Origin: Marinospirillum sp.
GTDB lineage: Bacteria; Pseudomonadota; Gammaproteobacteria; Pseudomonadales; Halomonadaceae
NCBI GenBank assembly: GCA_007116195.1
Contig: SKIX01000188.1
Location: 1 to 17,466 of the forward strand
Length of the DNA stretch: 17,466 nt
Reading direction: 5' to 3'
Positions 1,730-17,466 of this stretch are shown here, piece after piece. Made by a program: the position numbers and the translations under genes. Under the pieces are notes generated by a model, which worked only from the letters and a program-made list of their open reading frames with translations, was not told where the DNA came from and made no database searches. Position 1 is the stretch's first letter, and each line of letters begins with the position of its first letter.

Positions 1730-1753
1730 AAAAAAGGCCCGCCTAAGCGGGCC
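1730..1753 (-). terminator. Strong intrinsic terminator for mqo, probably shared with dcd
   Basis: The 7-bp GC stem GGCCCGC (1736-1742) and GCGGGCC (1747-1753) has a 4-base CTAA loop. The six A residues at 1730-1735 become a T6 tail on the minus strand, which is a textbook rho-independent terminator about 40 bases after the mqo stop. On the plus strand the tail is AATATTTACTT, so it may also stop dcd transcripts, less efficiently. Confidence 0.88.
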
Positions 1754-1794
1754 AATATTTACTTGCTCACTTCTATTTCAAGCAGTTGCCTGTC

Positions 1795-3312: not shown

Positions 3313-3348
3313 TTTAATTGAACCCTATCCAAGTTTATTATGGCCGCG

Positions 3349-3376
3349 ATTATAGGCGTCAGCCTGCGACAATCAA
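3349..3376 (-). promoter_or_regulatory. Sigma70-type promoter for mqo
   Basis: On the minus strand, TTGATT (3371-3376) is separated by 16 bases from a perfect TATAAT (3349-3354), giving a leader of about 30 bases before the mqo ATG. The -10 is consensus and the -35 matches 4 of 6 positions. Seen by eye only. Confidence 0.55.
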
Positions 3377-3528
3377 TCCATCAATAGTGGAATAAGCCAT
3401 AAAGACTCGTTATGGCAAAAATTTGTGCTGGCCTTTTTGCTTTTGTCTGAGCTGAAGTGGCAAACAGACCTATCATTTTCATATTAAATCGCTAAAATTC
3501 CTGTTCGACTTAAGTATGAGGAGAGACT

Positions 3529-4857
3529 GTGCGTCTTTTACACTGTTTATTGTCCAGCTTAGCTTTTTTAGCAGTTTATTTTTTTGCACCGGTAGAGCAA
3601 GAAGTCGCATCCGGTTTAGCTATTTTAGTCATGATTGCCTGGTTGTGGCTGACCGAGGCTCTGCATGTCAGTGTGACGGCTTTGCTCGTGCCTTTGTTGG
3701 CTACAGCAACGGGTATTTTTAGCTTGCCGAAAGCGGTCTCGCATTTTGCAGATCCTATTATCTTTTTGTTCTTAGGTGGTTTTGCCTTGGCGGCTGGTTT
3801 GCGTCAACAGGGGCTGGATCGTTGGATGGCGTCCTGGGTGATGAAAAAAGCTGGAGGTGAGCTCGGTAAGGCAGCGCGTTGGTTGTTTGCACTGACAGCC
3901 TTTTTATCCATGTGGATTAGCAACACAGCGACGGCGGCCATGATGCTGCCTTTGGCTTTGGGTCTGCTCGCCCCTTTGGAAATGGAGCGTTACCGCGCTA
4001 CCTGGATCTACTTATTACTGGGTGTTGCTTTTAGTGCCAATATTGGTGGCATAGGTACGCTCGTGGGTAGTCCACCCAATGCTATAGCGGCTTCAGCCGT
4101 AGGTGTTAGTTTTGGGCAGTGGTTGCTCTGGGGGTTGCCCCTGGTGCTGGTGTTCTTGCCTGCAATGGACTGGATACTCCGTCGGGTACTCAAGCCTGCC
4201 GTTAAAGCAGAAGTGAGCCTGGCTGCTGTCGAGGTACAGTGGACTTCACGGCATACCGGAATGTTATTGGTTTTTTTGTTGACAGTTGTGTTATGGGTCT
4301 TGGGCGCCCCTTTGGGCCGCTTGCTCGGCATCGAAAGTGGTTATGATTCAGCCGTTGCCCTCTTAGCCTTGGTGTTACTGCATACCTTCGCTTTGGCTAG
4401 TTGGCGTGAAATAGAAAAAAGTGCTGATTGGGGGGTCTTGTTGCTGTTTGGTGGGGGCATTACCCTGAGTGCTGCACTGGGTGCGAGCGGTGCGGGCGCC
4501 TGGTTGGCTGAGTTGCTAGGTGGCACCTTTGCAGTGATGCCAGCCCTGGTGGTGATTGCGTTGATGCTTGTGTTTGCTTTGGCATTAACAGAGGTTGCCA
4601 GTAATACGGCCAGTGCCGCTCTGCTGATTCCCTTGTTTATTGGCATGGTGCCAGAAGTGGACTCGACAGTGATTGCGGTGATGGTTGCTGTGGCAACCTC
4701 CTGTGCTTTCTTACTGCCAGTGGCAACACCGCCCAATGCCATTATTTTTGGCAGTGGTAAGGTACCCCAGCGTGCGATGATCCTTAACGGTAGCTGGGTG
4801 ACCCTGGTTATCTTGCCACTATTAATTCTGGCAGCTGGCATTGCTCTACTGCTTTAA
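3529..4857 (+). CDS. SLC13/DASS-family sodium-coupled anion (dicarboxylate) transporter
   Basis: Inner-membrane transporter of the divalent anion:Na+ symporter family. The 442 residues are almost entirely hydrophobic helices. The protein has the duplicated family signatures: SNT at 131-133 with SPPN at 181-184 in the first half, and SNT at 358-360 with TPPN at 400-403 in the second half. These pairs form the sodium and substrate sites in the VcINDY fold. The GTG start at 3529 is chosen because GAGGAGAG lies directly upstream (3517-3524) and the first helix begins at once. An upstream ATG at 3516 is in another frame. The exact substrate cannot be read from sequence. Divergence from mqo (216-base gap) makes a C4-dicarboxylate such as malate or succinate a reasonable guess, but sulfate-type substrates are not excluded. 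It converges on the PRPP synthetase gene with 4 bases between the stops. Confidence 0.85.
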   Translation: MRLLHCLLSSLAFLAVYFFAPVEQEVASGLAILVMIAWLWLTEALHVSVTALLVPLLATATGIFSLPKAVSHFADPIIFLFLGGFALAAGLRQQGLDRWMASWVMKKAGGELGKAARWLFALTAFLSMWISNTATAAMMLPLALGLLAPLEMERYRATWIYLLLGVAFSANIGGIGTLVGSPPNAIAASAVGVSFGQWLLWGLPLVLVFLPAMDWILRRVLKPAVKAEVSLAAVEVQWTSRHTGMLLVFLLTVVLWVLGAPLGRLLGIESGYDSAVALLALVLLHTFALASWREIEKSADWGVLLLFGGGITLSAALGASGAGAWLAELLGGTFAVMPALVVIALMLVFALALTEVASNTASAALLIPLFIGMVPEVDSTVIAVMVAVATSCAFLLPVATPPNAIIFGSGKVPQRAMILNGSWVTLVILPLLILAAGIALLL

Positions 4858-4861
4858 CGGC

Positions 4862-5788
4862 TTATTGATCTAGCCAGGCTTGCAGACCTTCAGCTAAAGC
4901 CGGTGCCAGGTCGATGGCATTGGAGGGGTGGGGCACCGAATTGCTGGTGACCACCTGCTGGGTGTGACTCGCCTTGAGCAGTTCCCAGGCATTGGCACCA
5001 AATAAGCCGTGAGTGCCAATGCAAACCGCTGGTTGCATACCTGCTTTTTCCAAGTGATCAAGCGTTTGTAGCAGGGTTCGTCCGCTGGAAATAATATCAT
5101 CCACCAAAACAGGCGTGTGGTCGCGATAGTTGTTGACATGAGGAACAGATACCTGAACATCCAAGTCTCCGCTTCTGACTTTTTCTAGCACTTCAAAAGG
5201 GGCACCAGCCAGAGCAGCGACCTCGGCTACCCACTGCTCGCTTTCACTGTCGGGCCCAAGCAACAGCGGGTTGTAGACCTCACGGCTGATCCAGGCAGCA
5301 ACACTGGGTGCTGAATGCAGTGCCAAACTTTCCAGGTCATAAATTTCGTACAGGCTATTATAGCGGTGCAGGTGAGGATCAACGGTAATAAGGAAGTCAA
5401 AACTTTTGGAAATGAGCTGGGCAAAATGCCGTGAAGTGACACATTCACCACTTTTAAAACGCTTATCCTGACGCATATAGCTTAAATAGGGTGCGACTAA
5501 AGCCACTCGCTCTGCACCCAGTTCTTTCAACACTTCGGCGGTGAAAATTAATGGCAGGAACTTGGCATTAGGCTGGTAAAGGCTGCAGACCAAAAGGCAA
5601 TCGCGGCCCTCTACATCACTTTCTATGCGTAAATAGCTTTCGCCATCGGGAAAGTAGCGGTAATCCAGATCGCCGTCTTCACCCTTGAGTAAAGAGGTTA
5701 GATTATCCGCTATGCTGGAGTGAGCAACTGAGGGGTCTTCAAAAAAGAAATCCAGGTTAAAAATCAGGGGTGTAGTGTTGGTGCTCAT
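4862..5788 (-). CDS. Ribose-phosphate pyrophosphokinase-like protein (PRPP synthetase family)
   Basis: Member of the PRPP synthetase family, which makes PRPP from ribose 5-phosphate and ATP. The 308 residues match the family (about 290-315). Visible motifs: FPDGE (46-50); the ATP-binding RQDKR (106-110); VDPHLHR with the catalytic-region histidine H139 (136-142); GPD (178-180); the flexible-loop segment EKVRSGD (202-208); and the PRPP-binding loop VLVDDIISSGRTL (227-239). The last differs from the bacterial housekeeping VDDMIDTGGTL, and several segments resemble archaeal-type Prs more than E. coli Prs. It is therefore probably a second, specialised paralogue and not the essential prs. It overlaps the upstream phosphorylase gene by ATGA and has its own GGAG 7 bases before the ATG, so translational coupling is likely. 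Activity is inferred, not proven. Confidence 0.85.
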   Translation of the reverse strand: MSTNTTPLIFNLDFFFEDPSVAHSSIADNLTSLLKGEDGDLDYRYFPDGESYLRIESDVEGRDCLLVCSLYQPNAKFLPLIFTAEVLKELGAERVALVAPYLSYMRQDKRFKSGECVTSRHFAQLISKSFDFLITVDPHLHRYNSLYEIYDLESLALHSAPSVAAWISREVYNPLLLGPDSESEQWVAEVAALAGAPFEVLEKVRSGDLDVQVSVPHVNNYRDHTPVLVDDIISSGRTLLQTLDHLEKAGMQPAVCIGTHGLFGANAWELLKASHTQQVVTSNSVPHPSNAIDLAPALAEGLQAWLDQ

Positions 5789-7311
5789 GCGCAGACTCCA
5801 ATCATATCAGGGTGAGCTTCCAGAAAATCGACCGCATATTGCAGCTCACCGGGGCTAGCGGCATGCAGGGTTAACAGACGTTGGCCTACCTCTAAGCGGT
5901 CACCTAGCTTAACCTCTAAAGTGACACCTGCAGCAGGGTCTTCCGGTGCACCCGCCAGTTTGGCTAGTTGTGAAAGCTGGCGGTTATCAATGGAGGTGAC
6001 TTGTCCTGCTTGAGGGCTAAGCCAATTGAACTGATAGGGTGCTAGCTGGGGTTCTTTGAAACCGCCTTGAGCTTGGCAAATGGCAATAAATTTTGCCAGG
6101 GCTGCTCCTGAATCCAGGGTCTTTTCTGCTAGAGCCCAGCCTTTTCCAGGTTCAGCTAAGTCGGCCATTTCTAAGAGCTCGCCTGCCAGTAGCAGTGCTC
6201 TTGCACGTAAATCCTCGGGTGCATGGGTTTCGCAGCGTAAAACAGAGAGTAGGTCCTTGGCTTCGAGCACCGGCCCTATGCCTCTGCCAACCGGCTGAGT
6301 GCCGTCTGTTCTGAGTACACGCACTTCCAGGCCCAGGGCTTTGCCGGTTGTAATGAGGTGGCGACTGAGTAAGTCAGCGGCCTCTTCTGAGCGTACCTTG
6401 GCTGTGGGGCCAAGGGGTATATCAATCAGGACGTGGCTAGAGCCAGCAGCAGCTTTTTTAGATAGCACCGAAGCAACCATCTGCCCTTCACTGTCTAAAT
6501 CCAGCATCCTTTCAACTCGGATTAAAATGTCATCGGCAGGAGAAAGGTTGACCGAGCCACCCCAGGCCAAGCAGCCACCTTCTTGGGTGACCACTTTTTG
6601 CAAGGTTTCCAGGCTCAGCTCAACCGGAGTCATGGTTGCAAGGGTATCTGCGGTTCCAGCAGGTGAGGTAATTGCTCGTGAAGAAGTCTTAGGCATAATC
6701 GCACCACAGGCAGTGACGATGGCAACCACAATCGGGGTCGTGCGGTTGCCAGCCAAGCCGCCGACACAGTGTTTATCAACGATGCGAGACTGTCCCCAGT
6801 CCAGTTTGCGACCAGAATTAAGCATGGCGCGGGTGAGTGCTATGATTTCATCTTGATCCAGGTTGTCACCGGCACAGGCCGTCACAAAGCTTGATAAGTG
6901 AACATCCGAATAACGACCAGCGACCATATCATTAATGATTTCCTGCGTTTGTTCTTCGTTGAGCCGGTGCCCATAAATTTTATGACGCAGGTGACTTAAA
7001 GACAGTACTGGATCAGGATGGCGAATGTGCGCTTCACTGGCTTCTGATGGCTGCAGGCGCTGCCAAGCTGATTCAGACAGTCCCATTTCACCAGGTTTGA
7101 GTAGAGTATCGTCGTTAACGATCGACAGGGTGGCAAGAATAGAGCGATCGCCAATGCGGATTTGCACCCGATTGCTAGAAGTGAAGCCTTCAGAGCGGCA
7201 AACATGGCTGTTGCGGCGCAAGTAAACGACCAGCTCTTGATGGGTGTCTATGCCTAAACGTAAAGGTTTGAGGCGAAACGCGGGTTCGTCAGAAGCAACG
7301 GAGACGACCAT
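5785..7311 (-). CDS. AMP phosphorylase / putative thymidine phosphorylase (type 2)
   Basis: Nucleoside or nucleotide phosphorylase of glycosyltransferase family 3. At 508 residues it is longer than classical DeoA (about 440) because of an N-terminal domain of roughly 100 residues, as in archaeal AMP phosphorylase. The helical domain starts near residue 108 (KIYGHRLNEEQ). The phosphate-binding region is DKHCVGGLAGNRTTP (179-193), and SSRAITSPAGTAD (210-222) is the form typical of AMP phosphorylases; classical thymidine phosphorylases have SGRGLGHTGGT-like sequence there. Archaeal enzymes convert AMP and phosphate to adenine and ribose 1,5-bisphosphate; bacterial members are usually labelled putative thymidine phosphorylase. 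The true substrate is unknown here. AAGGA precedes the ATG by about 7 bases. It is the first gene of a two-gene operon with the PRPP synthetase-like gene, preceded by a probable promoter and a 19-bp palindrome. Confidence 0.87.
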   Translation of the reverse strand: MVVSVASDEPAFRLKPLRLGIDTHQELVVYLRRNSHVCRSEGFTSSNRVQIRIGDRSILATLSIVNDDTLLKPGEMGLSESAWQRLQPSEASEAHIRHPDPVLSLSHLRHKIYGHRLNEEQTQEIINDMVAGRYSDVHLSSFVTACAGDNLDQDEIIALTRAMLNSGRKLDWGQSRIVDKHCVGGLAGNRTTPIVVAIVTACGAIMPKTSSRAITSPAGTADTLATMTPVELSLETLQKVVTQEGGCLAWGGSVNLSPADDILIRVERMLDLDSEGQMVASVLSKKAAAGSSHVLIDIPLGPTAKVRSEEAADLLSRHLITTGKALGLEVRVLRTDGTQPVGRGIGPVLEAKDLLSVLRCETHAPEDLRARALLLAGELLEMADLAEPGKGWALAEKTLDSGAALAKFIAICQAQGGFKEPQLAPYQFNWLSPQAGQVTSIDNRQLSQLAKLAGAPEDPAAGVTLEVKLGDRLEVGQRLLTLHAASPGELQYAVDFLEAHPDMIGVCA

Positions 7312-7321
7312 AAAAATTCCT

Positions 7322-7340
7322 TGTAAATAACGGATTTACA
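7322..7340. promoter_or_regulatory. Perfect 19-bp palindrome, probable operator of the phosphorylase-Prs operon
   Basis: TGTAAAT (7322-7328) and ATTTACA (7334-7340) form a perfect inverted repeat with 5 central bases. It lies between the candidate -10 (7344-7349) and the phosphorylase start codon, overlapping the expected transcription start, as a repressor site would. It resembles TyrR-type boxes (TGTAAA-N6-TTTACA) but has 7 bases between those half-sites, so I do not assign a regulator. The stem is AU-rich and unlikely to act as a terminator. Confidence 0.6.
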
Positions 7341-7343
7341 GTC

Positions 7344-7373
7344 ATCTTAGTCCTAGTCCCCAAAAGAGGGCAA
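7344..7373 (-). promoter_or_regulatory. Candidate promoter of the phosphorylase-Prs operon
   Basis: On the minus strand, TTGCCC (7368-7373) and TAAGAT (7344-7349) are 18 bases apart, each matching 4 of 6 consensus positions. The palindrome at 7322-7340 follows directly. The short hairpin GCAAG-CGG-CTTGC (7370-7382) overlaps the -35 and may belong to the end of the upstream EAL gene. Confidence 0.4.
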
Positions 7374-7393
7374 GCGGCTTGCAGTCTAAGCGG

Positions 7394-8641
7394 TTAATTT
7401 TCCAGCCAGGCAGCAGGCAAGTCAGCACAAAGCACCCAAAGGTGATCGCCGCCGGTATTCGTCACAGCGATTGACAGGGTAATGTCCAAAGTAGCATCAG
7501 GCAGCCCTAAATAGGGAGCAGAAACCTGAACCTGACCCGGTTGCTCTAAGGCATTGCGAAAGTAGCTACGCCTTGCCCAGAGTGCACCAGCGCCCTGATT
7601 GAGCGGGGCATAGGTTGCTGTCGCAGTCGACTTTTTGCCTCCTGGGTGAAGGTTTTCAACAATTTGTACGCCTTCAGCATCGAGCAGATAGATGCGCTCA
7701 ATGGCTGAGTGTTGCTGAAGCGGTTGGGTGGCCACTTTAAAGTCTTGGTTGTGCCCTAAGCTAGTGGCTGCTTGTTTCATTAGGTTTTGCAATTGGCGCT
7801 GTTTGCGGGCTTGATTGTGACGTCTGGCGAGCTGCCCATGCAGGGCATGCTGGTGTAAAGATTGAATGGATTCGGCAAGCTCAGGTGCTTGATAGCTGCC
7901 CAGAGGCGAAGGGCGAGCAAAGTAAAAGCCTTGAGCTAGGTCGCTTTCGCTATCGAGCGTCAGCAAGGCATCCTCTTCAGTTTCAACACCTTCTAAAAGT
8001 ACCAGAGCACCCGTTTCACGAAGCAGGGCAACGCAACGACTCAGCCAGCGCTGTCTTTTGGGGTTATTGCGGGCATTAACGAGCATGGAACGGTCAAGCT
8101 TTACAATATGCGGTTCTAGCTGCCAAATACGATCAAAATTGGACTGACCTGTGCCGAAGTCGTCTATGGCAATCAGAAAGCCCGCCTGGCGATAATGCTC
8201 AACAAACTCTTGCAGCAATACGGGATCATCAACAGCATCTTCCAGGATTTCCAATACCATGCGCTCGCTGCCTAATCCTTGGCGTTTTAAAAATTTTTCC
8301 AGCAAATCGGAGCGCAGGTTTTGGGGCTGAATAGTTTCACTGCGCAAATTAAGAAATAGCCACTGGTTTTCAGTTTGCAGTTGCGCAAAATTATTTAAAT
8401 GCTTGGCAATACACTGGCGATCAAACTGCTCTACCCGGTTTTCAAGCTGAGCCAAGTTAAAAGCTTCAAGCGGAGAGCAGGGCTGGTTTGCTCCATGAGT
8501 CGCACGCAAGAGCGCTTCATAGCCCACCACTCGGCGGTGCGTCAGGCTAACGATTGGCTGAAAATGGCTATGAATCTGCATGGATTGAGCTTTTCCCTGG
8601 TTGCCAGTAATCAAAGGGTAGGGCAATTCAAAATAGGACAT
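7394..8641 (-). CDS. EAL-domain c-di-GMP phosphodiesterase with C-terminal sensor-like domain
   Basis: Predicted to hydrolyse c-di-GMP to pGpG. From the chosen start it has 415 residues. The EAL domain (about 20-245) keeps the catalytic set: E42 in YEALLR, N98 in FLNL, E131 and E134 in LEILE, D160-D161 in IDDFGTG, K181 and D183 in VKLDRS, E217 in EGVE, and Q237 in AQGFYFARP. It is therefore likely an active enzyme. Residues about 245-415 are soluble, with a predicted helix and then a PAS/Cache-like mixed fold (YLLDAEGVQIVEN, then YFRNAL and SIAVTNTGGDHLWVLCADL). This is similar in layout to the EAL-YkuI_C architecture, and the assignment is tentative. The frame stays open to 8839, which would add 66 residues including a short hydrophobic stretch. 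I prefer ATG 8641 (GAGAGGA about 11 bases upstream) because a likely promoter and inverted repeat fall in that extension. No GGDEF domain is present. Confidence 0.87.
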   Translation of the reverse strand: MSYFELPYPLITGNQGKAQSMQIHSHFQPIVSLTHRRVVGYEALLRATHGANQPCSPLEAFNLAQLENRVEQFDRQCIAKHLNNFAQLQTENQWLFLNLRSETIQPQNLRSDLLEKFLKRQGLGSERMVLEILEDAVDDPVLLQEFVEHYRQAGFLIAIDDFGTGQSNFDRIWQLEPHIVKLDRSMLVNARNNPKRQRWLSRCVALLRETGALVLLEGVETEEDALLTLDSESDLAQGFYFARPSPLGSYQAPELAESIQSLHQHALHGQLARRHNQARKQRQLQNLMKQAATSLGHNQDFKVATQPLQQHSAIERIYLLDAEGVQIVENLHPGGKKSTATATYAPLNQGAGALWARRSYFRNALEQPGQVQVSAPYLGLPDATLDITLSIAVTNTGGDHLWVLCADLPAAWLEN

Positions 8642-8690
8642 CCTTAAAATGGTCCTCTCGGGTTTCTTGTGGTTAATTCTACCGAGTAAT

Positions 8691-8730
8691 GCAAGAAGAA
8701 TACCAATAAAATAAATTACCATCTTCTTGC
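8691..8730. repeat. 9-bp inverted repeat in the EAL gene leader
   Basis: GCAAGAAGA (8691-8699) and TCTTCTTGC (8722-8730) are exact inverted repeats separated by 22 AT-rich bases. They lie in the 274-base gap between the divergent EAL and YebC-family genes, immediately after the candidate -10 of the EAL gene. This could be an operator or a leader RNA stem-loop. The alternative upstream reading frame of the EAL gene would also pass through it. Confidence 0.45.
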
Positions 8731-8758
8731 TATAAGCTAGGTAGCGACTGGGTTTCAA
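8729..8758 (-). promoter_or_regulatory. Candidate promoter of the EAL gene
   Basis: On the minus strand, TTGAAA (8753-8758) is 18 bases from TATAGC (8729-8734). The -35 matches 5 of 6 and the -10 matches 4 of 6. It would give a leader of about 80 bases to the ATG at 8641, containing the 9-bp inverted repeat. I found no convincing promoter for the divergent plus-strand gene in this gap. Confidence 0.35.
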
Positions 8759-8915
8759 CGGGTTGTTTGCACCAAATAAGTGAGTCGGAGGTTCAGGTGT
8801 CCGGGTTGTGCACTCTAGTGGTGCTTCAATGCTGGACAAGGCTGCGGATGCATTTGATGGGTTTTGTAGTAAACTGAAAGTCCTTTTTACTTCGATTACT
8901 AATAGGACATCATCG

Positions 8916-9635
8916 ATGGGTCGCGCCTTTCAAAACCGTAAAGAATCCATGGCCAAAACAGCGGCTGCTAAAACTAAGGTTTACAGTAAGTACGGACGAG
9001 AAATTTATGCTACGGCTAAAGCCAGTGGTGCCGATCCGGATGGGAACCTGGCATTACGCAGTCTGCTAGATCGTGCCAAAAAAGACCAGGTTCCAGCACA
9101 TGTCATTGATAAAGCTCTCGAGAAGGCCAAAGGCGGTGGCGGTGAGGACTTTGCAGTCGCGCGTTATGAAGGTTTCGGCCCTGGCAATATTATGGTGATT
9201 GTTAGTTGCCTTACCGATAATCCTAACCGTACCTTTGGTGATGTGCGCCAGTGCTTTACTAAAACCAAATGTAAAATCGGCACGCCGGGCAGTGTTAGTC
9301 ATATGTTTGATCACAGTGCGATTTTTGCTTTCCCAGGGGAAGATGAAGAAGCGGTGCTGGATGCTTTGATGGAAGCTGATGTTGATGTCAGTGATATTGA
9401 AAATGAAGGGGGGCAAATTACTGTTTTTGCGCCTCATACTGACTATGCTAAAGCTCGCCAAGCCTTGATTGCGGCTTTTGGTGAGCTGGATTTTGCTCTT
9501 GATGAAATTCAATTTTTGCCGCAAAACACCAGCAGCTTGGACAACGACGAAGAGCGCGCCTTGTTTGAAAAGTTTTTAGACCTGCTTAATGACTTGGATG
9601 ATGTGCAAAGGGTTTACCACAGCGCAGAGCTTTAA
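8916..9635 (+). CDS. YebC/PmpR (TACO1) family protein, YeeN type
   Basis: Cytoplasmic protein of the YebC family, long annotated as a DNA-binding regulator. More recent work on YebC/TACO1 proteins points to a role in helping ribosomes translate difficult, proline-rich stretches; which role applies here is unknown. At 239 residues the size is normal. Family features: [15 protein letters not shown] at the N-terminus, [11 protein letters not shown] (21-31), the block [39 protein letters not shown], and the C-terminal VQRVYH. The [11 protein letters not shown] and QVPxHVIDKA forms resemble E. coli YeeN more than E. coli YebC. The start at 8916 is fixed by the conserved MGRAFQ N-terminus, with AGGA about 8 bases upstream; the open frame back to 8808 has no family similarity. 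The mrp operon starts 40 bases after its stop. Confidence 0.92.
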
Positions 9636-9675
9636 CCCTGATTAGTCATCGTCCTGCAACCCAGAAGGAGCAGTT

Positions 9676-10188
9676 ATGCGCTTTAAACCCCCTTCGGGTT
9701 TTTTGCTGCGACTCCTACTTTTTGCTCTACTCTGGTGGATTCTAACCCAGGGTGAGCCAGCCTCGTGGTGGTGGGGGCTGCCTGTGGTGTTTTGGGTGGC
9801 CTGGATGCCGCCCATCTACGCTAGCCCGCCCTGGCGCTGGCATCTGCTGCCTGCGATGCGCTTGTTACCGCGCTTTCTTTTGCTCAGTGCTCGTGGTGGC
9901 TGGGAGGTGGCCCTCTTAGCTGCCAAGCCGCATTCTGTGTTGAATACTCGCTTGGTTGATTACACCTGGTGCTGTCTGCCTGCTGGCCCAGCTCGTGTTT
10001 TTATGGCCAGCCTGATCAACCTTATTCCTGGTACTTTGACACTACGCTTTTTGCCAGATCAAGATTGCCTGCATGTGCATATTTTAAATTATCGGCCAGC
10101 AACCCTAACCAGCCTGCAACGCTTGGAGGTTGCTATTGCTGATCTTTATGGCTTGCCGGTACCCGCTGCGATCAGGAAGCTGTTATGA
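9676..10188 (+). CDS. mrpE: Mrp-type Na+/H+ antiporter subunit E
   Basis: First subunit of the membrane antiporter complex encoded at 9676-14891. The 170 residues have two N-terminal hydrophobic helices (about 8-25 and 31-48) followed by the MnhE core: RFLLLSARGGWEVA near 66-79 and the signature SLINLIPGTLTLRF (112-125) with LHVHIL (132-137). The length is typical (about 160). AAGGAG (9665-9670) stands 5 bases before the ATG. The stop overlaps the mrpF start by ATGA. A hairpin resembling a terminator lies inside the first codons (see 9685-9704). MrpE is needed for assembly and full activity in studied Mrp systems, but is not thought to carry the main ion path. Confidence 0.9.
   Translation: MRFKPPSGFLLRLLLFALLWWILTQGEPASWWWGLPVVFWVAWMPPIYASPPWRWHLLPAMRLLPRFLLLSARGGWEVALLAAKPHSVLNTRLVDYTWCCLPAGPARVFMASLINLIPGTLTLRFLPDQDCLHVHILNYRPATLTSLQRLEVAIADLYGLPVPAAIRKLL
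9685..9704 (+). other. Terminator-like hairpin inside the first codons of mrpE
   Basis: AAACCC (9685-9690) pairs with GGGTTT (9696-9701) around a CCTTC loop, and the run of six T residues (9699-9704) completes an intrinsic-terminator shape. It is about 50 bases after the YebC-family stop but begins 10 bases into the mrpE coding sequence. The stem is short, and half of it is A-T. It could trim read-through from the upstream gene, attenuate mrp transcription, or be chance. Confidence 0.35.
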
Positions 10189-10472
10189 CTTGGTTTCATT
10201 TTTTGATTTTACTGCTGTTACTGAATGCGGCCGTGGGTTTATGGCGGGTTTTAAAAGGCCCGACAGCCGCTGATCGTATGCTGGCGGTTGAGCTGATTTC
10301 AACTTCAAGCTTGGCCATGGTCTTATTATTAGGTGTGTTGACGGCAACCGATGCCTTGGTTGATGTGGCGTTACTCTTTGCGCTTTTAGCCGCTATGGCG
10401 GTTGCTAATTTTGCGACGCGAACCTGGTCTGTATTAAAACGTCGTGGACAGGTGGCCGATGATGAGCATTGA
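10185..10472 (+). CDS. mrpF: Mrp-type antiporter subunit F
   Basis: Small three-helix membrane subunit of 95 residues, a normal MrpF length. The signature RVLKGPTAADRMLAVELIS (21-39) between helix 1 and helix 2 matches the conserved R-x-x-x-GPT-x-x-DR motif, and two further hydrophobic segments follow. The ATG at 10185 overlaps the mrpE stop by 4 bases (ATGA). The C-terminal end overlaps the mrpG start by 11 or 14 bases. It works with E and G in the small-subunit part of the complex and corresponds to MbhB of membrane-bound hydrogenases. Confidence 0.9.
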   Translation: MTWFHFLILLLLLNAAVGLWRVLKGPTAADRMLAVELISTSSLAMVLLLGVLTATDALVDVALLFALLAAMAVANFATRTWSVLKRRGQVADDEH

Positions 10473-10806
10473 ATTCAGCTTTTGGTTCAGTCGCTTGGCA
10501 ATTACGCTGGGCGTGGCTTTTTTAATAGCTGGCACTCTAGGCTTGTTACGTTTTCCAGATGTTTATGCCCGTCTGCATGCGCTAACCAAGGCAGATACTC
10601 TAGGCTTGGGTTTGGTGTGTTTGGGGATGGCTCTGCAGGCCGCTAGCTTGCCCTTGGCATTAAAATACCTGCTGATTTGGGTGCTCATGCTTATGGCCTC
10701 TAGTATCGGTGCAACGCTGGTTGCTTCAACTGCCTATGCAGCCGGTATAGAGCCAGACCTGGGGCCACAAAAGCCTTTGCATTTGCGTACTGAGGAAGAC
10801 CCTTGA
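10462..10806 (+). CDS. mrpG: Mrp-type antiporter subunit G
   Basis: Three-helix membrane subunit of 114 residues from this start. The MnhG signature spans AGTLGLLRFPDVYARLHALT and continues with KADTLGLG, all in the first half of the protein. Two adjacent ATGs (10459 and 10462) both lie within reach of AGGTGG (10448-10453). I chose 10462, with 8-base spacing, but 10459 is equally possible; the ORF opening at 10444 would put the site inside the gene. The stop TGA shares one base with the next ATG (10806). Corresponds to MbhC in hydrogenase complexes. Confidence 0.9.
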   Translation: MSIEFSFWFSRLAITLGVAFLIAGTLGLLRFPDVYARLHALTKADTLGLGLVCLGMALQAASLPLALKYLLIWVLMLMASSIGATLVASTAYAAGIEPDLGPQKPLHLRTEEDP

Positions 10807-11726
10807 TGTCCGTGCTGTTATTGGATGGCTTGTTGGCGTTGGGCGTATTTTGGCTGGCGTGGCAGACCTTGTTTGCGGCCAGCTTATTTCGCGGCGTGGT
10901 CAGTTTTATGGTGTTTGGCCTGCTGATTTCTTTGATCTGGATACGCTTAGATGCGCCTGATATTGCGCTAGCCGAAGCAGCGATAGGTGCAGGCGTGACC
11001 GGTGCTTTATTTTTATCTGCTTTAGGCCGGCTGGAGGATACGGACTCACCTTCTTTTCGTCGTTTGCCTTGGCGCTCGCCCTGGTTTATCAGTAGCAGCT
11101 TGTTGGTGCTGCTTGGCGTTATTGGCTTAGCGGGTGTTAGCTGGCAACTGCCTGCACCTGGCTTAGCTGAGGCTGTCGAGGAGGAGTTGCAGCGCGCAGG
11201 TGCAACCCATCCAGTAACGGCGGTGCTGTTAAACTTGCGTGGTCTGGATACTTTATTAGAGGTGGCGGTGATGTTGTCGGCCGTGATTTTTAGTTGGTCC
11301 TTGGGTTCAGCTGTGATACCTCACCCGCCAGCCACCCAGTTACCCGGATTGCCCGCGCTTGCAGCCCTCTTGTATCCGGTCTTTTTAGTGGTTGCTGTTT
11401 ATCTGCTGTGGCGAGGTTCACATGCTCCAGGTGGAGCTTTTCCAGCGGGGGCGGTGTTGGGTGCCGGCGGTATTTTAACGCTGTTAGCAGGTGGCTTTGG
11501 TTGGATGGAGCGGGCGGATCGTCAAGGTTTATTACGAACTCTGCTTTCGGCTGGGCTAGCACTTTTTCTACTCGTTGCTTGGGGCGGGCTGTTTATAACG
11601 GGTGCCTTCTTTCAGTTACCTGAAGCTTGGGCTGCGCAGTTGATCATCTTGGTTGAGGTGGCTACTGCCTTATCTATAGCCTTGATGTTGATGGCGTTTT
11701 ACCTCTATGGGGAGCCTCGCTTATGA
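10806..11726 (+). CDS. mrpB: Fused MrpA C-terminal region (MbhD/MbhE-like) and MrpB
   Basis: A 306-residue membrane protein made of three modules that are separate or differently joined elsewhere. Residues 1-80 are a DUF4040/MbhD-like domain with RLDAPDIALAEAAIGAG (47-63), including D52 and E57. Residues about 90-170 are MbhE-like, with HPVTAVLLNLRGLDTLLEVA (135-154), including D148 and E152. Both normally form the C-terminal part of MrpA. Residues about 180-306 are MnhB, with HAPGGAFPAGAVLGAGG (206-222) and ILVEVATAL (E284). A standalone MrpB is about 140 residues. No NuoL-like MrpA N-terminal part is attached or encoded nearby. The start is ATG 10806, with a 1-base overlap (TGATG) with mrpG; an in-frame TTG at 10803 just before it is unlikely. 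It overlaps mrpC by ATGA. Confidence 0.88.
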   Translation: MSVLLLDGLLALGVFWLAWQTLFAASLFRGVVSFMVFGLLISLIWIRLDAPDIALAEAAIGAGVTGALFLSALGRLEDTDSPSFRRLPWRSPWFISSSLLVLLGVIGLAGVSWQLPAPGLAEAVEEELQRAGATHPVTAVLLNLRGLDTLLEVAVMLSAVIFSWSLGSAVIPHPPATQLPGLPALAALLYPVFLVVAVYLLWRGSHAPGGAFPAGAVLGAGGILTLLAGGFGWMERADRQGLLRTLLSAGLALFLLVAWGGLFITGAFFQLPEAWAAQLIILVEVATALSIALMLMAFYLYGEPRL

Positions 11727-12019
11727 CCCAGGTCTATGCCTTGTTAGCGGCTGCCTTAACTGGTTTGGCTTTAGTTGGTTTATTTACGTCTCAGGATTTA
11801 TTGCGTCGCCTTTTGGCAATTAACATTTTGGGTTCGGCTGTTTTTTTGCTGCTGGTTACTATCGCGCGTAAAGCGACGGTTTTAGACCCGGTTCCTCATG
11901 CCATGGTGTTAACGGGCATCGTTGTTGCTGTGAGTACAACTGCGGTGGCTTTGGCTTTAATTCTTCATGCTGCTGATGCCCGTCGGCGTCAGGTTGCTCA
12001 GCGAGCAGCCGATGATTGA
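11723..12019 (+). CDS. mrpC: Mrp-type antiporter subunit C (NuoK-like)
   Basis: A 98-residue, three-helix membrane subunit homologous to NuoK of complex I and MbhG of hydrogenases. Signatures: LLAINILGSAVFLLLVTIA (30-48), then DPVPHAMVLTGIVVAVSTTA (56-75). It is slightly shorter than typical MrpC (about 110-125), missing only tail length. The stop lies inside the next gene (8-base overlap), consistent with coupled translation. Confidence 0.9.
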   Translation: MTQVYALLAAALTGLALVGLFTSQDLLRRLLAINILGSAVFLLLVTIARKATVLDPVPHAMVLTGIVVAVSTTAVALALILHAADARRRQVAQRAADD

Positions 12020-14891
12020 GTTGCTATCAACCTATTGGGCTGAGGCCTTAGCACTACTGGTTAGCTGGCCTTTGTTGCTGGCTTTGTTGGCGTTCAGGCG
12101 CTGGGTAAGCCCTGCTGGTCTGCTGGTTTTAGGGGTGCCCAGTATGCTCTTGGCAACCTGGGTTCCTGGATTGGCAGTGAAAATGGCTGCAGACTTGCCG
12201 CTTGCTTTTGCACTGGGCGGCTGGCTCAGCCCTTTAGGCATTCAGTGGCTGCTGGATGAGGCCGCTTGGGTGTTACTAGTGACTGTTAATGTCATTGCTA
12301 GCTTGGCAGCTATTGCCGCTTGGCTGTTTGGGCGTGCTCTAGGTGGGTCAGATTACTTCTGGCCACTGTGGTGGTTGCTTTGGGGCGGCATGAATGCTCT
12401 GGTTGTTTCTGCAGACTTGTTTAATTTATACGTGACGCTGGAGCTGGTGACTCTGGCTGCTGTGGGTTTGGTTGCTCAGTCGCGCAATGATCCAGAAGGC
12501 AAGGCAGCAATGAACTATTTATTAGCTTCTTTGCTGGCTTCTTTGTTGTATTTGCTGGGCGTGGCGCTTATTTATGGTCAAACCGGTGTATTGGATTTGC
12601 AGCGCTTAACCGGGCAGCTGCAGGCTGATGCTGTAATGGCTTTGGCCGCTTTACTGATGACGCTGGGCTTGTTGCTTAAAGCCGCTGTAGTCCCTTTGCA
12701 TTTTTGGTTGCCTGAAGCTCACTCGCGTGCTCAAGCCCCAGTTAGTGTGCTGCTTTCCTCGGTGGTGATTGCCCTTGCGGTTTACTTGCTATGGCGTTTG
12801 TGGTTAGGGCCTTTTCAACCCTTGCTGGCATCAGCTCAGCCATTTTTTTCCGTACTGGCGACGAGCTGCCTGATTTGGGGTGGTGTGCAGGCCTGGCTAC
12901 AGCCTCGTCTTAAACTGGTGCTTGCTTATTCAACCTTGTCGCAAATAGGTTTTGCCCTTTTATTATTGCAGCTAGTTGCCCTAGAAGACATCTCAGCCTG
13001 GTCAAGCCTGGCGGAGCAGGGGAGTTTGATTTTTATTTTGGCGCATGGCTTAGCCAAAGCAGCATTATTTATGGTGGCTGGAGCTTTGATGCTGGCTTTA
13101 TCGACCGATCGACTCAAGCAACTCCAGGGCAGTGCCAAGTTGATGCCACTGGCTTGGGTGGCTTTTGCCCTGGCCAGTTTGAGCCTGTTGGGTGCGCCAC
13201 CGACGGCTGGCTTTGTTGGTAAGTGGTTTTTGCTTCAAGTAGCCTGGCAGCAGAGTGACTGGATCACGGTGGGGTTGCTCTTGGCAGGTACCTTGATCAC
13301 TGCCATCTATTTGTTTCGAGTGATGCAATTTGCCTGGAAGCCCGCTGCTGAAGAGGCGGCAAGCCTAGCAGCCGATATACGCTGGCGAGCCAGGGCTTTG
13401 GCAGGCTTAGCTTTGCTAACGGCTTTGGCTAGTTGGGCCCTGGGCCTAGGGCTACTGCATGCCCAGCCTTGGCCAATTTTTGCTGTCTTTGGCTTGGATG
13501 CTCTAGCGGCTACCTTCTTGGGGCCAGCTGTATTGATTTGGTCGCTGGCTTGGCTCTATGCCAAGCTTTGGCAAAGCTCGGGTCAGCTCTTGTGGTTGCT
13601 GGCTTGGGGTGGTTTGCTCAATATTTTGCTGCTACTGGCCCAGGACTTGCTCAGCTTTTATATCTTTTTTGCCCTGCTTAGTTTTTTAGGTTGGTGGCTA
13701 GTGATCTCTTCGGGTAAGCCTGAAGCCTTGGCTGCTGGGCGGGTCTATCTGGCAATGAGCCTGCTGGGTGAGTTGGCTTTCTTTACAGCTTTAGGTGTGC
13801 TTGGAGGTCAAGCTTTAGACTTTGCTAGCCTTGCTGCCAACGACTTACCTGCAGCTGCTCTTTGGGCATTGGGCTTGGCTTTTGCAATCAAAGCCGGGGT
13901 ATTGGGTGTGCATTTTTGGTTGCCCCTAGCTCACCCTGTGGCTCCAGCTGCTGCCAGTGCTGTGCTCTCTGGTCTGATGATTAAAGCCGGTTTAATCGGA
14001 GCATTTAGGGTATTTCCTGAGCAGTCAGGGCTAGAGCCTTGGGGCTGGGTATTGTTGGTTTTGGGTTGGGTTGCAGCTTTTTATACCGTTATCTTGGGCT
14101 TGCTGCAAAAGCAACCAAAAAGTTTGCTCGCCTGGTCAAGTGTTAGTCAAATGGGGTTGATGACCGCGCTTTTAGGTAGCAGCTTGATTTTGCAGGGCGA
14201 GGGGCAGCAGCTAGCCCTGGTGAGCTTGTTATTGTTGGCTTTAACTCATGCTTTGGCTAAAGCAGGCTTGTTTTTAGGTGTGGGTTTGGTTGCAACTCTG
14301 CCCCTGAAGTTCAAGCCTGCAATCTTGGTAGGGCAGGCTTGTTTGGCATTAACTTTGGTCGGTGTGCCTATTTTTGCGGGGGTGTACGGTAAGTATGGGT
14401 TGCAGCTAAGTCTAGCCTTGGTTGCTATCCCTGCGGGGTTGTTGTTTGCATCGAGCCTGGCTACCAGCTTGTTGCTGGGGCGTTTTTTGGAGCTACTCGC
14501 TCATCAGGAGCCGCCAAAAAGTGATTCTCCTAAGCTTAAAGGTTTTTGGTTGCTGCCTTGGTGGTTATTGATTGTGGCTGCGGTGCTTGCTGCTGGGCTC
14601 TTTCCTCAAGAGCAAGTTCAGGTTTCCTGGTGGTCTTTTGAAACCTGGTGGCAGGGGTGGCTACCAGTTGGGCTGGCGCTAGCGATGCTGTTACTGAAAA
14701 AGCGCTTTGAATTGCCCTCTGGCTTGCCGAGGTTGGCTTGGCGCTTTCCTGAGTTTATTCCCCGGTTCACTGTAACTCAGTGGCTGCTGACTCGGGAGGA
14801 GCGCTTTCATCCCTGGTCGAGCGTTGGTTGGCTGCTGGCGCTGGTTGCTGCTTTTTTAGGTGCTTTGCTAGCGTATTCACTGGTGTACTAA
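12012..14891 (+). CDS. mrpD: Double MrpD-like antiporter protein (two NuoL/M/N modules in one chain)
   Basis: A 959-residue integral membrane protein, about twice the usual MrpD length (about 500). Module 1 (about 1-485) has E144 in LYVTLELVTL (TM5), K223 before HFWLPEAHS (TM7 region, H230), H345 and K349 in AHGLAKA, and K404 in GFVGKW (TM12). Module 2 (about 486-959) has K627 before HFWLPLAH, K658 in SGLMIKAG (TM8), H746 and K750 in THALAKA, and K794 in GVYGKY. Module 2 has A554 where module 1 has E144, and module 1 has A254 where module 2 has K658. Module 2 seems to lack the first one or two helices and carries extra helices at its C-terminus. The start ATG 12012 is preferred over 11967 because it begins the MrpD-like N-terminus and overlaps mrpC by only 8 bases. 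The protein probably supplies both cation/proton-translocating units of the complex. No stop or frameshift interrupts it. Confidence 0.88.
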   Translation: MIELLSTYWAEALALLVSWPLLLALLAFRRWVSPAGLLVLGVPSMLLATWVPGLAVKMAADLPLAFALGGWLSPLGIQWLLDEAAWVLLVTVNVIASLAAIAAWLFGRALGGSDYFWPLWWLLWGGMNALVVSADLFNLYVTLELVTLAAVGLVAQSRNDPEGKAAMNYLLASLLASLLYLLGVALIYGQTGVLDLQRLTGQLQADAVMALAALLMTLGLLLKAAVVPLHFWLPEAHSRAQAPVSVLLSSVVIALAVYLLWRLWLGPFQPLLASAQPFFSVLATSCLIWGGVQAWLQPRLKLVLAYSTLSQIGFALLLLQLVALEDISAWSSLAEQGSLIFILAHGLAKAALFMVAGALMLALSTDRLKQLQGSAKLMPLAWVAFALASLSLLGAPPTAGFVGKWFLLQVAWQQSDWITVGLLLAGTLITAIYLFRVMQFAWKPAAEEAASLAADIRWRARALAGLALLTALASWALGLGLLHAQPWPIFAVFGLDALAATFLGPAVLIWSLAWLYAKLWQSSGQLLWLLAWGGLLNILLLLAQDLLSFYIFFALLSFLGWWLVISSGKPEALAAGRVYLAMSLLGELAFFTALGVLGGQALDFASLAANDLPAAALWALGLAFAIKAGVLGVHFWLPLAHPVAPAAASAVLSGLMIKAGLIGAFRVFPEQSGLEPWGWVLLVLGWVAAFYTVILGLLQKQPKSLLAWSSVSQMGLMTALLGSSLILQGEGQQLALVSLLLLALTHALAKAGLFLGVGLVATLPLKFKPAILVGQACLALTLVGVPIFAGVYGKYGLQLSLALVAIPAGLLFASSLATSLLLGRFLELLAHQEPPKSDSPKLKGFWLLPWWLLIVAAVLAAGLFPQEQVQVSWWSFETWWQGWLPVGLALAMLLLKKRFELPSGLPRLAWRFPEFIPRFTVTQWLLTREERFHPWSSVGWLLALVAAFLGALLAYSLVY

Positions 14892-14947
14892 AGGAGTATA
14901 CTAGGCGGCTTTTGATAACTGTTTTCTTCAAACACTTAGAGATTACG

Positions 14948-15802
14948 ATGGAACGCACCTACACTCTGACGATTTCTTGCCCTGACCGTGTTGGCATCGT
15001 TGCCAAGGTTAGTAATTTTTTAGCGATGTATGGTGGCTGGATTACTGAAGCTAACCATCACTCTGATTTGCAAGCTAATCGCTTTTTTATGCGTCATGAA
15101 ATCCGCGCTGCGTCTTTACCCTTCGGGTTAGAAGAGTTCCGCACTGCATTCGGCCCTATTGCCCGCGAATATGAAATGGATTGGGATATTACCGACTCAG
15201 CGACCAATAAAAAAGTGGTGCTGATGTGTTCTAAAGAATCCCATTGCATGGTTGATTTGCTGCACCGTTGGCAAAGTGGTGAGCTGGTTTGTGATATCCC
15301 TTTGGTGATTTCCAACCATGAAACCTTGAGAGAACTGGTTGAATGGCATGGCATACCTTTTCACTATGTACCGGTCAATAAAGACAATAAGCCGGAAGCC
15401 TATGCCCAAGTTGAGCAGTTGATTGACGAGGCTGAAGCAGACTGTGTGGTTTTAGCACGCTATATGCAAATTATTCCTCCAGCTCTATGCGATAAGTATC
15501 AGCATCGAATCATTAATATTCACCATAGCTTCTTGCCCTCCTTTGCTGGTGCCAAGCCTTACCATCAGGCCTATGAGCGAGGGGTGAAGCTGATAGGTGC
15601 CACCTGTCATTATGTCACCGAAGAGCTGGATGCTGGCCCGATCATCGATCAAGACACGGTCAGAGTTAATCACCGCCAAACAGCAGCTGACATGGTGCGT
15701 TTGGGTCGAGATGTTGAAAAAAGTGTTTTAGCGCGCGGTTTGGCCTGGCATCTACAAGATCGTGTTCTGGTTTACGGTAACAAGACGGTGGTTTTTAACT
15801 AG
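14948..15802 (+). CDS. purU: Formyltetrahydrofolate deformylase
   Basis: Hydrolyses 10-formyl-THF to THF and formate, balancing the one-carbon pool and supplying formate to PurT. The 284 residues match PurU (about 280-290). The N-terminal ACT domain (about 4-80) begins TLTISCPDRVGIVAKVSNFL. The formyltransferase-type domain follows from SKESHCMVDLLHRW (95-108). Catalytic residues are N190 and H192 in NIHHSFLPSFAG and D228 in DAGPII. The start at 14948 is fixed by the ACT domain; the open frame back to 14780 runs inside mrpD. The Shine-Dalgarno is weak (AGAG). A -10-like TATACT lies at 14897-14902 in the 56-base gap after mrpD but has no good -35. The lrgA start is only 12 bases downstream, so the three genes may be one transcript. 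Confidence 0.95.
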   Translation: MERTYTLTISCPDRVGIVAKVSNFLAMYGGWITEANHHSDLQANRFFMRHEIRAASLPFGLEEFRTAFGPIAREYEMDWDITDSATNKKVVLMCSKESHCMVDLLHRWQSGELVCDIPLVISNHETLRELVEWHGIPFHYVPVNKDNKPEAYAQVEQLIDEAEADCVVLARYMQIIPPALCDKYQHRIINIHHSFLPSFAGAKPYHQAYERGVKLIGATCHYVTEELDAGPIIDQDTVRVNHRQTAADMVRLGRDVEKSVLARGLAWHLQDRVLVYGNKTVVFN

Positions 15803-15814
15803 AGGGGCGCTGCA

Positions 15815-16171
15815 GTGGTACTTCAGGGCTTTGCTGTTTTGCTCTTTTTTCAGTTGCTGGGTGAGTTGCTAGTGCGTGCCAGTGGGTTGTTAGTACCTGG
15901 CCCTGTAGTGGGTATGGCACTTTTGCTGGCTTTTTTACTTTACCGGCGATCAGTAGCTGCGCCTCTTCGCGAAACATCTGAAGGGCTGTTGCGTTATTTG
16001 CCGCTACTCTTTGTGCCTGCTGGTGTTGGGCTTATCAATCATGGCCAGCTTTTGCAGCAGGATGGGCTGGTTATTGCTGTGACCCTGGTGGTCAGTACGG
16101 CGATCACTTTAGTGGTTACCGTGTTAAGTTATTCCTGGTTACGCAAGCTGTTAGGAGCGAGAGATGCCTGA
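15815..16171 (+). CDS. lrgA: CidA/LrgA family membrane protein
   Basis: Small inner-membrane protein of 118 residues with about four hydrophobic helices and the family motif PGPVVGM (28-34). CidA/LrgA proteins were first described as holin-like modulators of murein hydrolase export. Several CidAB/LrgAB pairs are now known to transport small carboxylates such as pyruvate, and the plant homologue PLGG1 carries glycolate and glycerate. The GTG start is supported by GAGGGG (15802-15807) about 7 bases upstream. It follows purU by 12 bases and overlaps lrgB by 8 bases. Confidence 0.88.
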   Translation: MVLQGFAVLLFFQLLGELLVRASGLLVPGPVVGMALLLAFLLYRRSVAAPLRETSEGLLRYLPLLFVPAGVGLINHGQLLQQDGLVIAVTLVVSTAITLVVTVLSYSWLRKLLGARDA

Positions 16172-16889
16172 GATACCTGAGGTTTTTGCTGAGCTTTGGG
16201 TTTATCTGGCGGCGAGCAAACTACTCTACCTGCTGCTGACACTGGTCGCCTTTATGCTGGCTCAGTGGTTAAACCGGCGTGCTGGTGGTAGCCCTTTTTT
16301 GCACCCAGTGCTGGTAGCTATTGCTCTACTTGTAAGTTTTTTGCTGATCACTGAAACACCTTACAGCGTATATTTTGAAGGAGCGCAATTTATTCATTTT
16401 TTGCTAGGGCCAGCGATTGTTGCTCTAGCCGTGCCCCTGTTCGATCACCGTGAACGTATTCGTAGAGAGTTTGTTGCTTTAATTCTGTCGTGTGTATTGG
16501 GGATTTTTGCAGCAGTTGCGTCAACCTGGGCACTGATTCGTTTGCTTGGGGGGCGAGAAGATACGCTTTTGTCGCTGCTGCCTAAGTCCGTTACTTCTCC
16601 AATTGCAATGGGTATTGCTGAGCAAATTGGGGGCTATCCAGCCTTAGCTGCTGGCATCGTCTTGATTACGGGCGCTATAGGCTGTGTGTTAGGGCCGCCT
16701 ATCTTTCGTTTGTTAAAAATCAAAGATCATGCCGTGCAAGGCTTCGCCATGGGCCTGGCAGCCCATGGTTTTGGTACAGCACAAAGTTTTACCGTTAGTA
16801 ATTTGGCCGGTGCCTTTGCAGGCTTAGCCATGGGGGTAACGGGGTTGTTAAGTGCGTTCTTGATTCCTTTGCTGGCAAAGTTTTTCTAG
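16164..16889 (+). CDS. lrgB: CidB/LrgB family membrane protein
   Basis: Partner of the preceding LrgA-like protein. The 241 residues form about seven or eight hydrophobic helices and carry the LrgB motifs FLLGPAIVALAVPL (79-92), KSVTSPIA (141-148) and AHGFGTA (200-206). AGGAG (16152-16156) lies 7 bases before the ATG. Length is typical for the family (about 230). The TAG stop shares the CTAG palindrome with the stop of the converging HAD phosphatase gene, leaving no room for an intergenic terminator. The substrate is unknown; a small organic acid transporter formed with the LrgA partner is the likely role. Confidence 0.9.
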   Translation: MPEIPEVFAELWVYLAASKLLYLLLTLVAFMLAQWLNRRAGGSPFLHPVLVAIALLVSFLLITETPYSVYFEGAQFIHFLLGPAIVALAVPLFDHRERIRREFVALILSCVLGIFAAVASTWALIRLLGGREDTLLSLLPKSVTSPIAMGIAEQIGGYPALAAGIVLITGAIGCVLGPPIFRLLKIKDHAVQGFAMGLAAHGFGTAQSFTVSNLAGAFAGLAMGVTGLLSAFLIPLLAKFF

Positions 16890-17466
16890 CTGTCTAAGCG
16901 ACGCTGGATCCAGCTATTCAACTCAGTCACACTGGTGGCAATAAAGTCAGCCCCCCAGTGGAGTGGGTTGTCGTCAATGCTGATATAGCCAAAACCGGCT
17001 ACAAGAGTTTGCATGCCAGCATTGATGCCAGCTTCTATATCTCTTGCATGATCACCGACATAAAGGCAGTTTTCCGGTGGTATGGCAAGTTGACGGGCAG
17101 CAAAGAGCAACGGAGCTGGGTCTGGCTTGCTAACCCCCAAGTCTTCTGGACAAACTAAAACCTGAGGGTGGAGTTTTAAGGCTTTAATGAGCAGGTCGGT
17201 ATAAAGGCGGGGTTTATTGGTTACTATACCCCAGGGCAGGGGTTGCTTTTCTAAGCGTTCTAATAAGAGCTCCAGACCTGAAAAAACCTGACTGTGTTCA
17301 GCCACCTTGTCTTGATAGAAGTCGAGCAAACTCTGCCTTAGTTGCGCCTGCCCAGGGTCACCCACTTTGACTCCAAAACCTAGCTCAACCAAGGCATTGC
17401 CGCCGTTGGATACCTGGTCGCGAATTAGTTCGTAGGGCAGGTCGGCGAGGCCTTTTTCTTGCCTTA
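16886..17466 (-). CDS. HAD-family phosphatase, MupP/Gph type (5' end beyond window)
   Basis: The reading frame is open to the right edge, so about 192 residues are visible and roughly 30 N-terminal residues, including the nucleophile DxD motif, lie outside. Visible HAD motifs: GIVTNKP (threonine near 17220), the lysine of GVSKPDP (near 17127), and YVGDHARDIEAG (near 17052). The C-terminal pattern of GYI, DNP, then HWGAD, together with VCPEDLGVSKPDP, resembles MupP (N-acetylmuramic acid 6-phosphate phosphatase, peptidoglycan recycling) at least as much as phosphoglycolate phosphatase. Automatic annotation would probably say Gph. In pseudomonads mupP follows ubiG, which could be checked just beyond the right edge. 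A TTG at 17390-17392 is not the true start, because family-like sequence (residues such as NGGNALVELGFG) continues upstream of it. Confidence 0.85.
   Translation of the reverse strand, partial: RQEKGLADLPYELIRDQVSNGGNALVELGFGVKVGDPGQAQLRQSLLDFYQDKVAEHSQVFSGLELLLERLEKQPLPWGIVTNKPRLYTDLLIKALKLHPQVLVCPEDLGVSKPDPAPLLFAARQLAIPPENCLYVGDHARDIEAGINAGMQTLVAGFGYISIDDNPLHWGADFIATSVTELNSWIQRRLDS

Follow-up and report, generated by a model that had tools for sequence, protein, structure and literature searches.

Can two antiporter modules of an Mrp-type complex exist as one real polypeptide, and how might such a chain work? The question is raised by a gene of Marinospirillum sp. (contig SKIX01000188.1, positions 1 to 17,466; this whole stretch of DNA is called the window). 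The open reading frame at 12012-14891 on the forward strand, to which all coordinates below refer unless stated otherwise, encodes a protein of 959 amino acids, and its sole stop codon is the terminal one. Pfam analysis identified two Proton_antipo_M stretches in this protein (E 5.3e-72). The HFWLP block (residues 230-234 and 634-638), the HxxxK segment (residues 345-349 and 746-750), and the lysine of transmembrane helix (TM) 12 (K404 and K794) were found in both modules. One uninterrupted chain with these motifs in each half had been claimed by the original prediction, which was made from the window alone. The identity between the two halves was 35% over 79 residues only; therefore, a recent tandem duplication was ruled out.

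Module 1 (residues 1-484, 12012..13463) carries TM1-14 and is MrpD/MbhH-like, and its predicted structure superposed on MrpD. Module 2 (residues 493-959, 13488..14888) carries TM3-14 plus TM15 and TM16. We designated these module types D1 and D3; a third type, D2, occurs in related operons. Two like MrpD modules had been expected, but module 2 is a D3 that has diverged and whose start is truncated. The junction (residues 485-496, 13464..13499) lies between helix 457-484 and helix 497-519. Module 2 begins at TM3; the first two helices that unfused D3 has are either lacking or in part merged into helix 457-484, which falls inside the part superposing structurally on MrpD. This helix might correspond to D3 TM2 instead of D1 TM14, as the D1 and D3 profiles both claim the stretch in several rows. 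D3 TM2 may have been lost, or it may have turned into D1 TM14. The D3 tail (14637..14885) consists of TM15, a weakly predicted connector, a short helix, and TM16. No long lateral helix was predicted in the fused chain; the gap between TM15 and TM16 contains a 12-residue helix (920-931) and the weakly predicted stretch. After TM12, the fused chain has 169 residues, compared with a median of 190 in unfused D3 (range 115-234). We also searched for six Shine-Dalgarno-like motifs before the 18 in-frame ATG, GTG, or TTG codons at residues 420-560, and none was present. Separate translation of module 2 is therefore unlikely from the sequence.

The distribution of the D1-D3 fusion was then determined. 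In a protein search, 649 of the 7994 scored candidates matched, and P0001 to P0040 among the best 120 all had D1 followed by D3. Because P0001 and P0002 represent one protein, the architecture occurs in 38 further clusters, one of which is shortened (P0039, 712 amino acids). The search took candidates of 0.55-1.75 times the query length, a range in which split D1 genes of approximately 490 residues could not appear. This gap is partly covered by genome scans, which count strong matches only: 201 genomes in the family of Halomonas sp. ML-15 (E<=1e-60, at most four candidates scored per genome) and 369 genomes in the class (E<=1e-55, at most two per genome). In the family, 16 genomes matched. 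Twelve contained the full-length fusion without an internal stop, and the other four contained the D1 part only. Two of these twelve (G002 and G007) additionally had a separate D1, which belongs to a separate D1-D2-D3 operon in the same genome as the fused one. No second D1 was found at 1e-60 in the other ten, although an apparent weaker D1-D2-D3 set is visible in G001 (contig C17). In the class, 33 genomes matched, and a full-length D1-D3 frame was found in the Halomonas centre genome only, leaving out G512, in which a frame of 1045 amino acids matches residues 469-868 of the fused protein. No plasmid record covered 80% of the fused protein. Taken together, the twelve unbroken frames and the 38 further clusters rule out an assembly error. 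In the close clade, no homologue split near the junction was found either, as all 12 fused places of the family are free of internal stops. More distant relatives are split into separate genes, as expected for the ancestor.

The charged residues of the two modules were compared next. Both modules were placed in one alignment, in which the six key positions share the same columns. In module 1, Glu144 (TM5, 12441..12443), Lys223 (TM7, 12678..12680), a His and a Lys on TM11, and Lys404 (TM12, 13221..13223) were kept in all 40 fused rows. The position of the TM8 lysine is occupied by Ala254 (12771..12773) in the window, and across the 40 fused rows it is Ala in 39 and Gly in one. No Lys, His, Asp, or Glu was found at residues 242-260 of module 1 in any of 34 aligned fused rows, and residue 262 is Arg in 32 of the 34. 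In module 2, Lys658 (TM8, 13983..13985) and Lys794 (TM12, 14391..14393) are kept, and the position of the TM5 glutamate is occupied by Ala554 (13671..13673), with Ala in 37, Thr in two, and Ser in one of the 40 fused rows. The other key positions of module 2 were kept in the fused rows, except where the shortened P0039 ends before TM11. The original prediction also spoke of two pumps at a fixed 1:1 ratio. This picture may be too simple, since each module lacks one key residue.

These two losses appear to differ in age. The TM5 glutamate was absent from 39 of 53 unfused D3 rows and kept in the remaining 14 (13 from Bacillota, and L078), which indicates that its loss from D3 predates the fusion. 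Outside the fused clade, 75 of 84 D1-like rows kept the TM8 lysine; its loss from D1 therefore belongs to the fused clade. The nine D1-like rows without it were from L011 (two), L046 (two), L048, L049, L061, L068, and L012, and all except L012 are distant or additional antiporters.

The fused gene is the last in a tightly packed set, E-F-G-B-C-DD, in which the gene ends overlap. The set comprises an mrpE-like gene (MNHE, PF01899; 9676..10188), an mrpF-like gene (PF04066; 10185..10472) with a 4-base overlap with mrpE, an mrpG-like gene (PF03334; 10444..10806), whose true start is perhaps the ATG at 10459 or 10462, a gene for 307 amino acids that combines an MbhD with an MnhB domain (10803..11726; the ATG at 10806 is the likelier start), and an mrpC-like gene (Oxidored_q2; 11723..12019), which the fused gene overlaps by 8 bases. 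All five Pfam domains of MrpE, MrpF, MrpG, MrpB, and MrpC were thus found. The genes E-F-G-B-C precede the fused gene in 13 loci (the window, L003, and all 11 loci L112-L122), in agreement with the constant gene order that had been proposed. By its domains, the MbhD+MnhB gene is the C-terminal part of MrpA plus MrpB in one chain. It retains the APDIALAEAAIGAG segment and the VTAV..N.RGLDTL.E segment of MBH and MBS chains, together with the acidic residues of the MrpA-C-like part. MrpF has a Glu at the position of Asp35 of Anoxybacillus MrpF. PF00662 was not detected in the six operon proteins at E 0.001, and MbhD is joined to MnhB; thus, a full-length MrpA with a NuoL-like N-terminal module and MbhD/MbhE is lacking. 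MrpC has Ser and Phe at the positions of the two cation-cavity histidines (H37c and H40c of Anoxybacillus), and no His occurred at either column in the 53 aligned rows (the window and 52 loci). Without an MrpA N-terminal module, a TM8 lysine in module 1, and histidines at the MrpC cavity, the complex departs from several features that define the characterised Mrp complexes, and we regard it as a variant.

We then investigated where the fusion came from. Contigs were scanned, and the best 80 loci of a longer list were typed with D1 (module 1), D3 (module 2), and D2 profiles. D1, D2, and D3 were on separate frames in 50 of the 80, and in 41 of these they followed each other directly in this order. 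Such loci occurred in Proteobacteria, in other phyla, and in Marinospirillum celere (L009), which has this separate operon beside its own fused locus (L122). The other loci comprised one fusion (L003), eight with D1-type frames only, 14 with other sets, six proteobacterial loci with separate D1 and D3 and no D2 (L032, L033, L041, L043, L047, and L071), and the archaeal L068, which was binned with these two-gene loci. With D1 and D3 modules behind E-F-G-B-C and a D3 without the TM5 glutamate, the window operon fits the D1-D2-D3 class. D2, which sits between D1 and D3 in L009, is absent from it. In trees, the fused D1 rows formed one group (SH-aLRT 99), as did the fused D3 rows (100/97, and 100/98 in a second D3 tree). 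The trees were midpoint-rooted, and the nearest unfused relatives of the fused rows were weakly resolved. The fused rows stood apart from the two-gene D1+D3 group, and descent from these two-gene operons is not favoured. As the fused rows form one group, a single origin of the D1-D3 fusion in the Marinospirillum and Halomonas lineage is probable. The original prediction saw in the fusion a possible covalent version of cyanobacterial Mrp operons, which carry two mrpD genes. The loci and the trees do not support this and instead indicate an E-F-G-B-C-D1-D2-D3 ancestor from which D2 disappeared. An in-frame deletion would be the simplest origin; besides D2, it would have removed about 66 residues where the modules meet, approximately the length of one two-helix hairpin.

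Other pairs of modules have also been joined in this gene set. A D2-D3 fusion was found in L108, L110, and L111, from the family of Halomonas sp. ML-15, and in P0044-P0046, with frames of 1080-1133 amino acids; a separate D1 lies beside it in L108, L110, and L111. Because the D2-D3 fusions fell in another group of the second D3 tree (96/93), at least two joinings occurred within this gene set. In the D3 of the set L108-L111, both the TM5 glutamate and the TM8 lysine are absent. L109 has the same layout, and its frame is broken into pieces of 418 and 804 amino acids by sequencing error or decay. A D1-D2 fusion was found in P0041-P0043 (P0042 is labelled Verticiella sediminum), with chains of 979-997 amino acids; the charged key positions are kept in both modules, with Gln for His in D2. 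These joinings are of the same operon type as that of the window and involve other pairs than D1-D3; unlike module 2, the D3 part of P0044-P0046 has retained its first helices. The recurrent joining of D1-D3, D2-D3, and D1-D2 suggests, at the level of sequence, that D1, D2, and D3 are adjacent in the assembled complex. In a phylum sample of 299 genomes, 31 places in 24 matching genomes contained no frame above 656 amino acids.

How would the fused chain work? Section 7 of PMC7419157 proposes proton paths in antiporter-like subunits around Lys-TM8 and Lys-TM12, with Glu-TM5/Lys-TM7 and the neighbour's Lys-TM12 as coupling points, and section 8 places Glu-TM5 of MrpD at a cation cavity beside MrpC. 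By analogy, module 1 would occupy the MrpD position beside MrpC and couple to the cation path through the kept Glu144/Lys223 pair. Lacking a TM8 lysine, it would not offer protons a separate way to the cytoplasm. Module 2, in the outer position, would carry most of the transmembrane proton traffic through Lys-TM8, His/Lys-TM11, and Lys-TM12. The interface, usually Lys-Glu-Lys, would become Lys404-Ala554-Lys627, so that Lys404 would face Lys627 without a glutamate between them. The lateral helix ties MrpA to MrpD in known complexes, as described in PMC9568556 and PMC7684303. In the fused protein, the covalent link would keep the two modules aligned and may stand in for part of this long helix of MrpA. 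The window complex appears to work like an Mrp antiporter arm. We consider it moderately probable that the fused protein forms one single-chain subunit in a variant complex of Mrp type (CPA3) and works in this manner. More tentatively, the chain could be one pump built from two half-equipped modules, with a single proton route through both: module 1 would supply the Glu/Lys coupling pair without a proton exit, and module 2 a proton path without the coupling glutamate. We regard this idea as possible rather than probable.

Several observations weigh against the variant-subunit reading. PMC7419157 assigns the main proton entry to MrpA-N, and the NuoL-type N-terminal domain is found in D2, the module that the window operon has lost. 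In L009, PF00662 was above the cut-off in D2, below it in D1, and absent from D3. By sequence score, however, D2 resembles MbhH, MbsH, and MrpD no less than it does MrpA. In a phmmer comparison with solved chains, L009 D2 matched MbhH and MbsH first; NuoL came next, and MrpA and MrpD scored about equally. The D2-D3 protein P0044 matched NuoL, MbhH, and MrpD ahead of MrpA. To call D2 a plain MrpA-N equivalent would therefore be an overstatement. Module 2 aligned from chain residue 3-4 in 9 of the 50 VIA rows, all nine being ND5-type chains, which conflicts with the absence of TM1-2. The loss of the TM8 lysine lies on one branch and hence allows no statistical link to the fusion. A tie to the loss of D2 is not favoured, because the two-gene D1+D3 operons without D2 keep the lysine. 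A general tie to fusion is suggestive only: the D3 of L108-L111 has lost the lysine too, but P0044-P0046 keep it, and the unfused D1 of L012 carries Met at this position. Finally, the lack of MrpC cation-site histidines makes the transported cation uncertain, and Na+ is questioned as the substrate of this operon class.

The last point also supports another explanation, in which Na+ exchange has been given up: the complex would move protons, K+, or another ion, or act as a leak that is slow and regulated, and the lost residues would reflect decay. The separate D1-D2-D3 operon of Marinospirillum celere could then do the main job. However, the frames are intact at all twelve fused places of the family, the 13 loci inspected share one gene order, and the MrpA-C-like acidic residues are kept, and we consider this explanation distinctly improbable. 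It is unlikely, to a lesser degree, that the fusion joins two complete pumps for the sake of stoichiometry, with waters or neighbouring residues bypassing the missing TM8 Lys and TM5 Glu. The charged residues of TM7, TM11, and TM12 that both modules keep (P0039 apart) are consistent with this, and the unfused D3 proteins without the TM5 glutamate presumably work. PMC7419157, however, describes the Lys/Glu pairs as invariant and essential, with the TM8 lysine being key, and TM8 of module 1 offers no Lys, His, Asp, or Glu as a substitute in the 34 rows. The fused protein might also assemble with the subunits of a second Mrp operon rather than with its own E-F-G-B-C partners, as both operons are present in G002 and G007. 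This is very hard to reconcile with its place in a complete small-subunit set with overlapping gene ends and with the ten fused genomes that lack a second D1 at 1e-60, the apparent weaker set of G001 notwithstanding. The chance that the long frame is an assembly artefact, or yields two proteins through an internal start, is negligible given the twelve open frames and the absence of the tested Shine-Dalgarno-like motifs.

The variant subunit was then compared with known systems. Like Mrp, the operon encodes an MrpD-type subunit with Proton_antipo_M. Group 1/2 Mrp (CPA3) of Bacillus, Anoxybacillus, and Dietzia has a full-length MrpA, which is replaced here by MbhD joined to MnhB; the second antiporter module of the window is a D3 fused to D1, and the window operon has neither the TM8 Lys in module 1, nor the TM5 Glu in module 2, nor the two histidines of MrpC. 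The key residues of MrpD (Glu-TM5, Lys-TM7, Lys-TM8, and Lys-TM12) read E, K, A, and K in module 1. The group 3 Mrp of the cyanobacterium Aphanothece halophytica, mrpCD1D2EFGAB (PMC5703873), likewise has more than one mrpD-type module per operon, but as separate chains, whereas the window has one fused gene in the order E-F-G-B-C-DD. The MBS of Pyrococcus has two neighbouring antiporter-like modules, MbsH and MbsH', in one membrane arm. As described in PMC7684303, these are separate chains accompanied by a long lateral helix and redox subunits, and their central axis residues are kept in both (E138 and K250 in MbsH; E128 and K248 in MbsH'), with E219 in place of the TM7 lysine in MbsH. Complex I with added MrpD-like subunits (rhizobial "green" and Ca. 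Manganitrophus Complex_I_3; PMC9040806) similarly has extra pump modules in an array, although these are separate subunits inside a redox enzyme. We found no description of fused two-module MrpD proteins in the open-licence literature searched, mostly as abstracts, or in PMC12361115, PMC5703873, PMC7684303, PMC7419157, PMC9568556, and PMC9040806.

Section 7 of PMC7419157 treats as open whether each antiporter-like subunit moves one proton or only the outermost one links to the far side, with redistribution along the axis. A conserved chain with complementary residue losses, a fixed 1:1 ratio, and unfused D1, D2, and D3 relatives would make this question of proton sharing testable. If the modules are indeed half-equipped, the chain would be a natural experiment deciding between an own proton for each subunit and sharing along the central axis. 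Before transport measurements, its practical importance is limited.

The operon is flanked upstream by a YebC-type gene and downstream by a formyltransferase gene with an ACT domain, followed by LrgA and LrgB. Among the 12 flanking genes tested in the window, Pfam detected no redox subunits of complex I, MBH, or MBS. Flanking genes, including the formyltransferase, are common to the window, Marinospirillum celere (L122), L112, and L113, which fits a probable origin of the window in a Marinospirillum-like bacterium. Elsewhere in the window, on the reverse strand, a ribose-phosphate pyrophosphokinase-like gene (4862-5788) overlaps a pyrimidine nucleoside phosphorylase-like gene (5785-7311), and the pair may act jointly in nucleotide salvage.

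Further large antiporter frames were observed in the searches. L070 of Photobacterium chitinilyticum (7992-11786) encodes 1265 amino acids with three Proton_antipo_M and two Proton_antipo_N stretches, and an open frame of 1306 amino acids in L050 (Thermoanaerobacteraceae bacterium) has a similar set by profile. In L042 (Thiohalocapsa marina), the D3 frame of approximately 823 amino acids (10813-13281) has a long extra C-terminal part. P0063, P0088 (labelled Paraburkholderia panacisoli), and similar entries represent a different fusion of approximately 1030 amino acids, in which the first module, by eye, has Glu for the TM7 lysine, comparable to E219 of MbsH.

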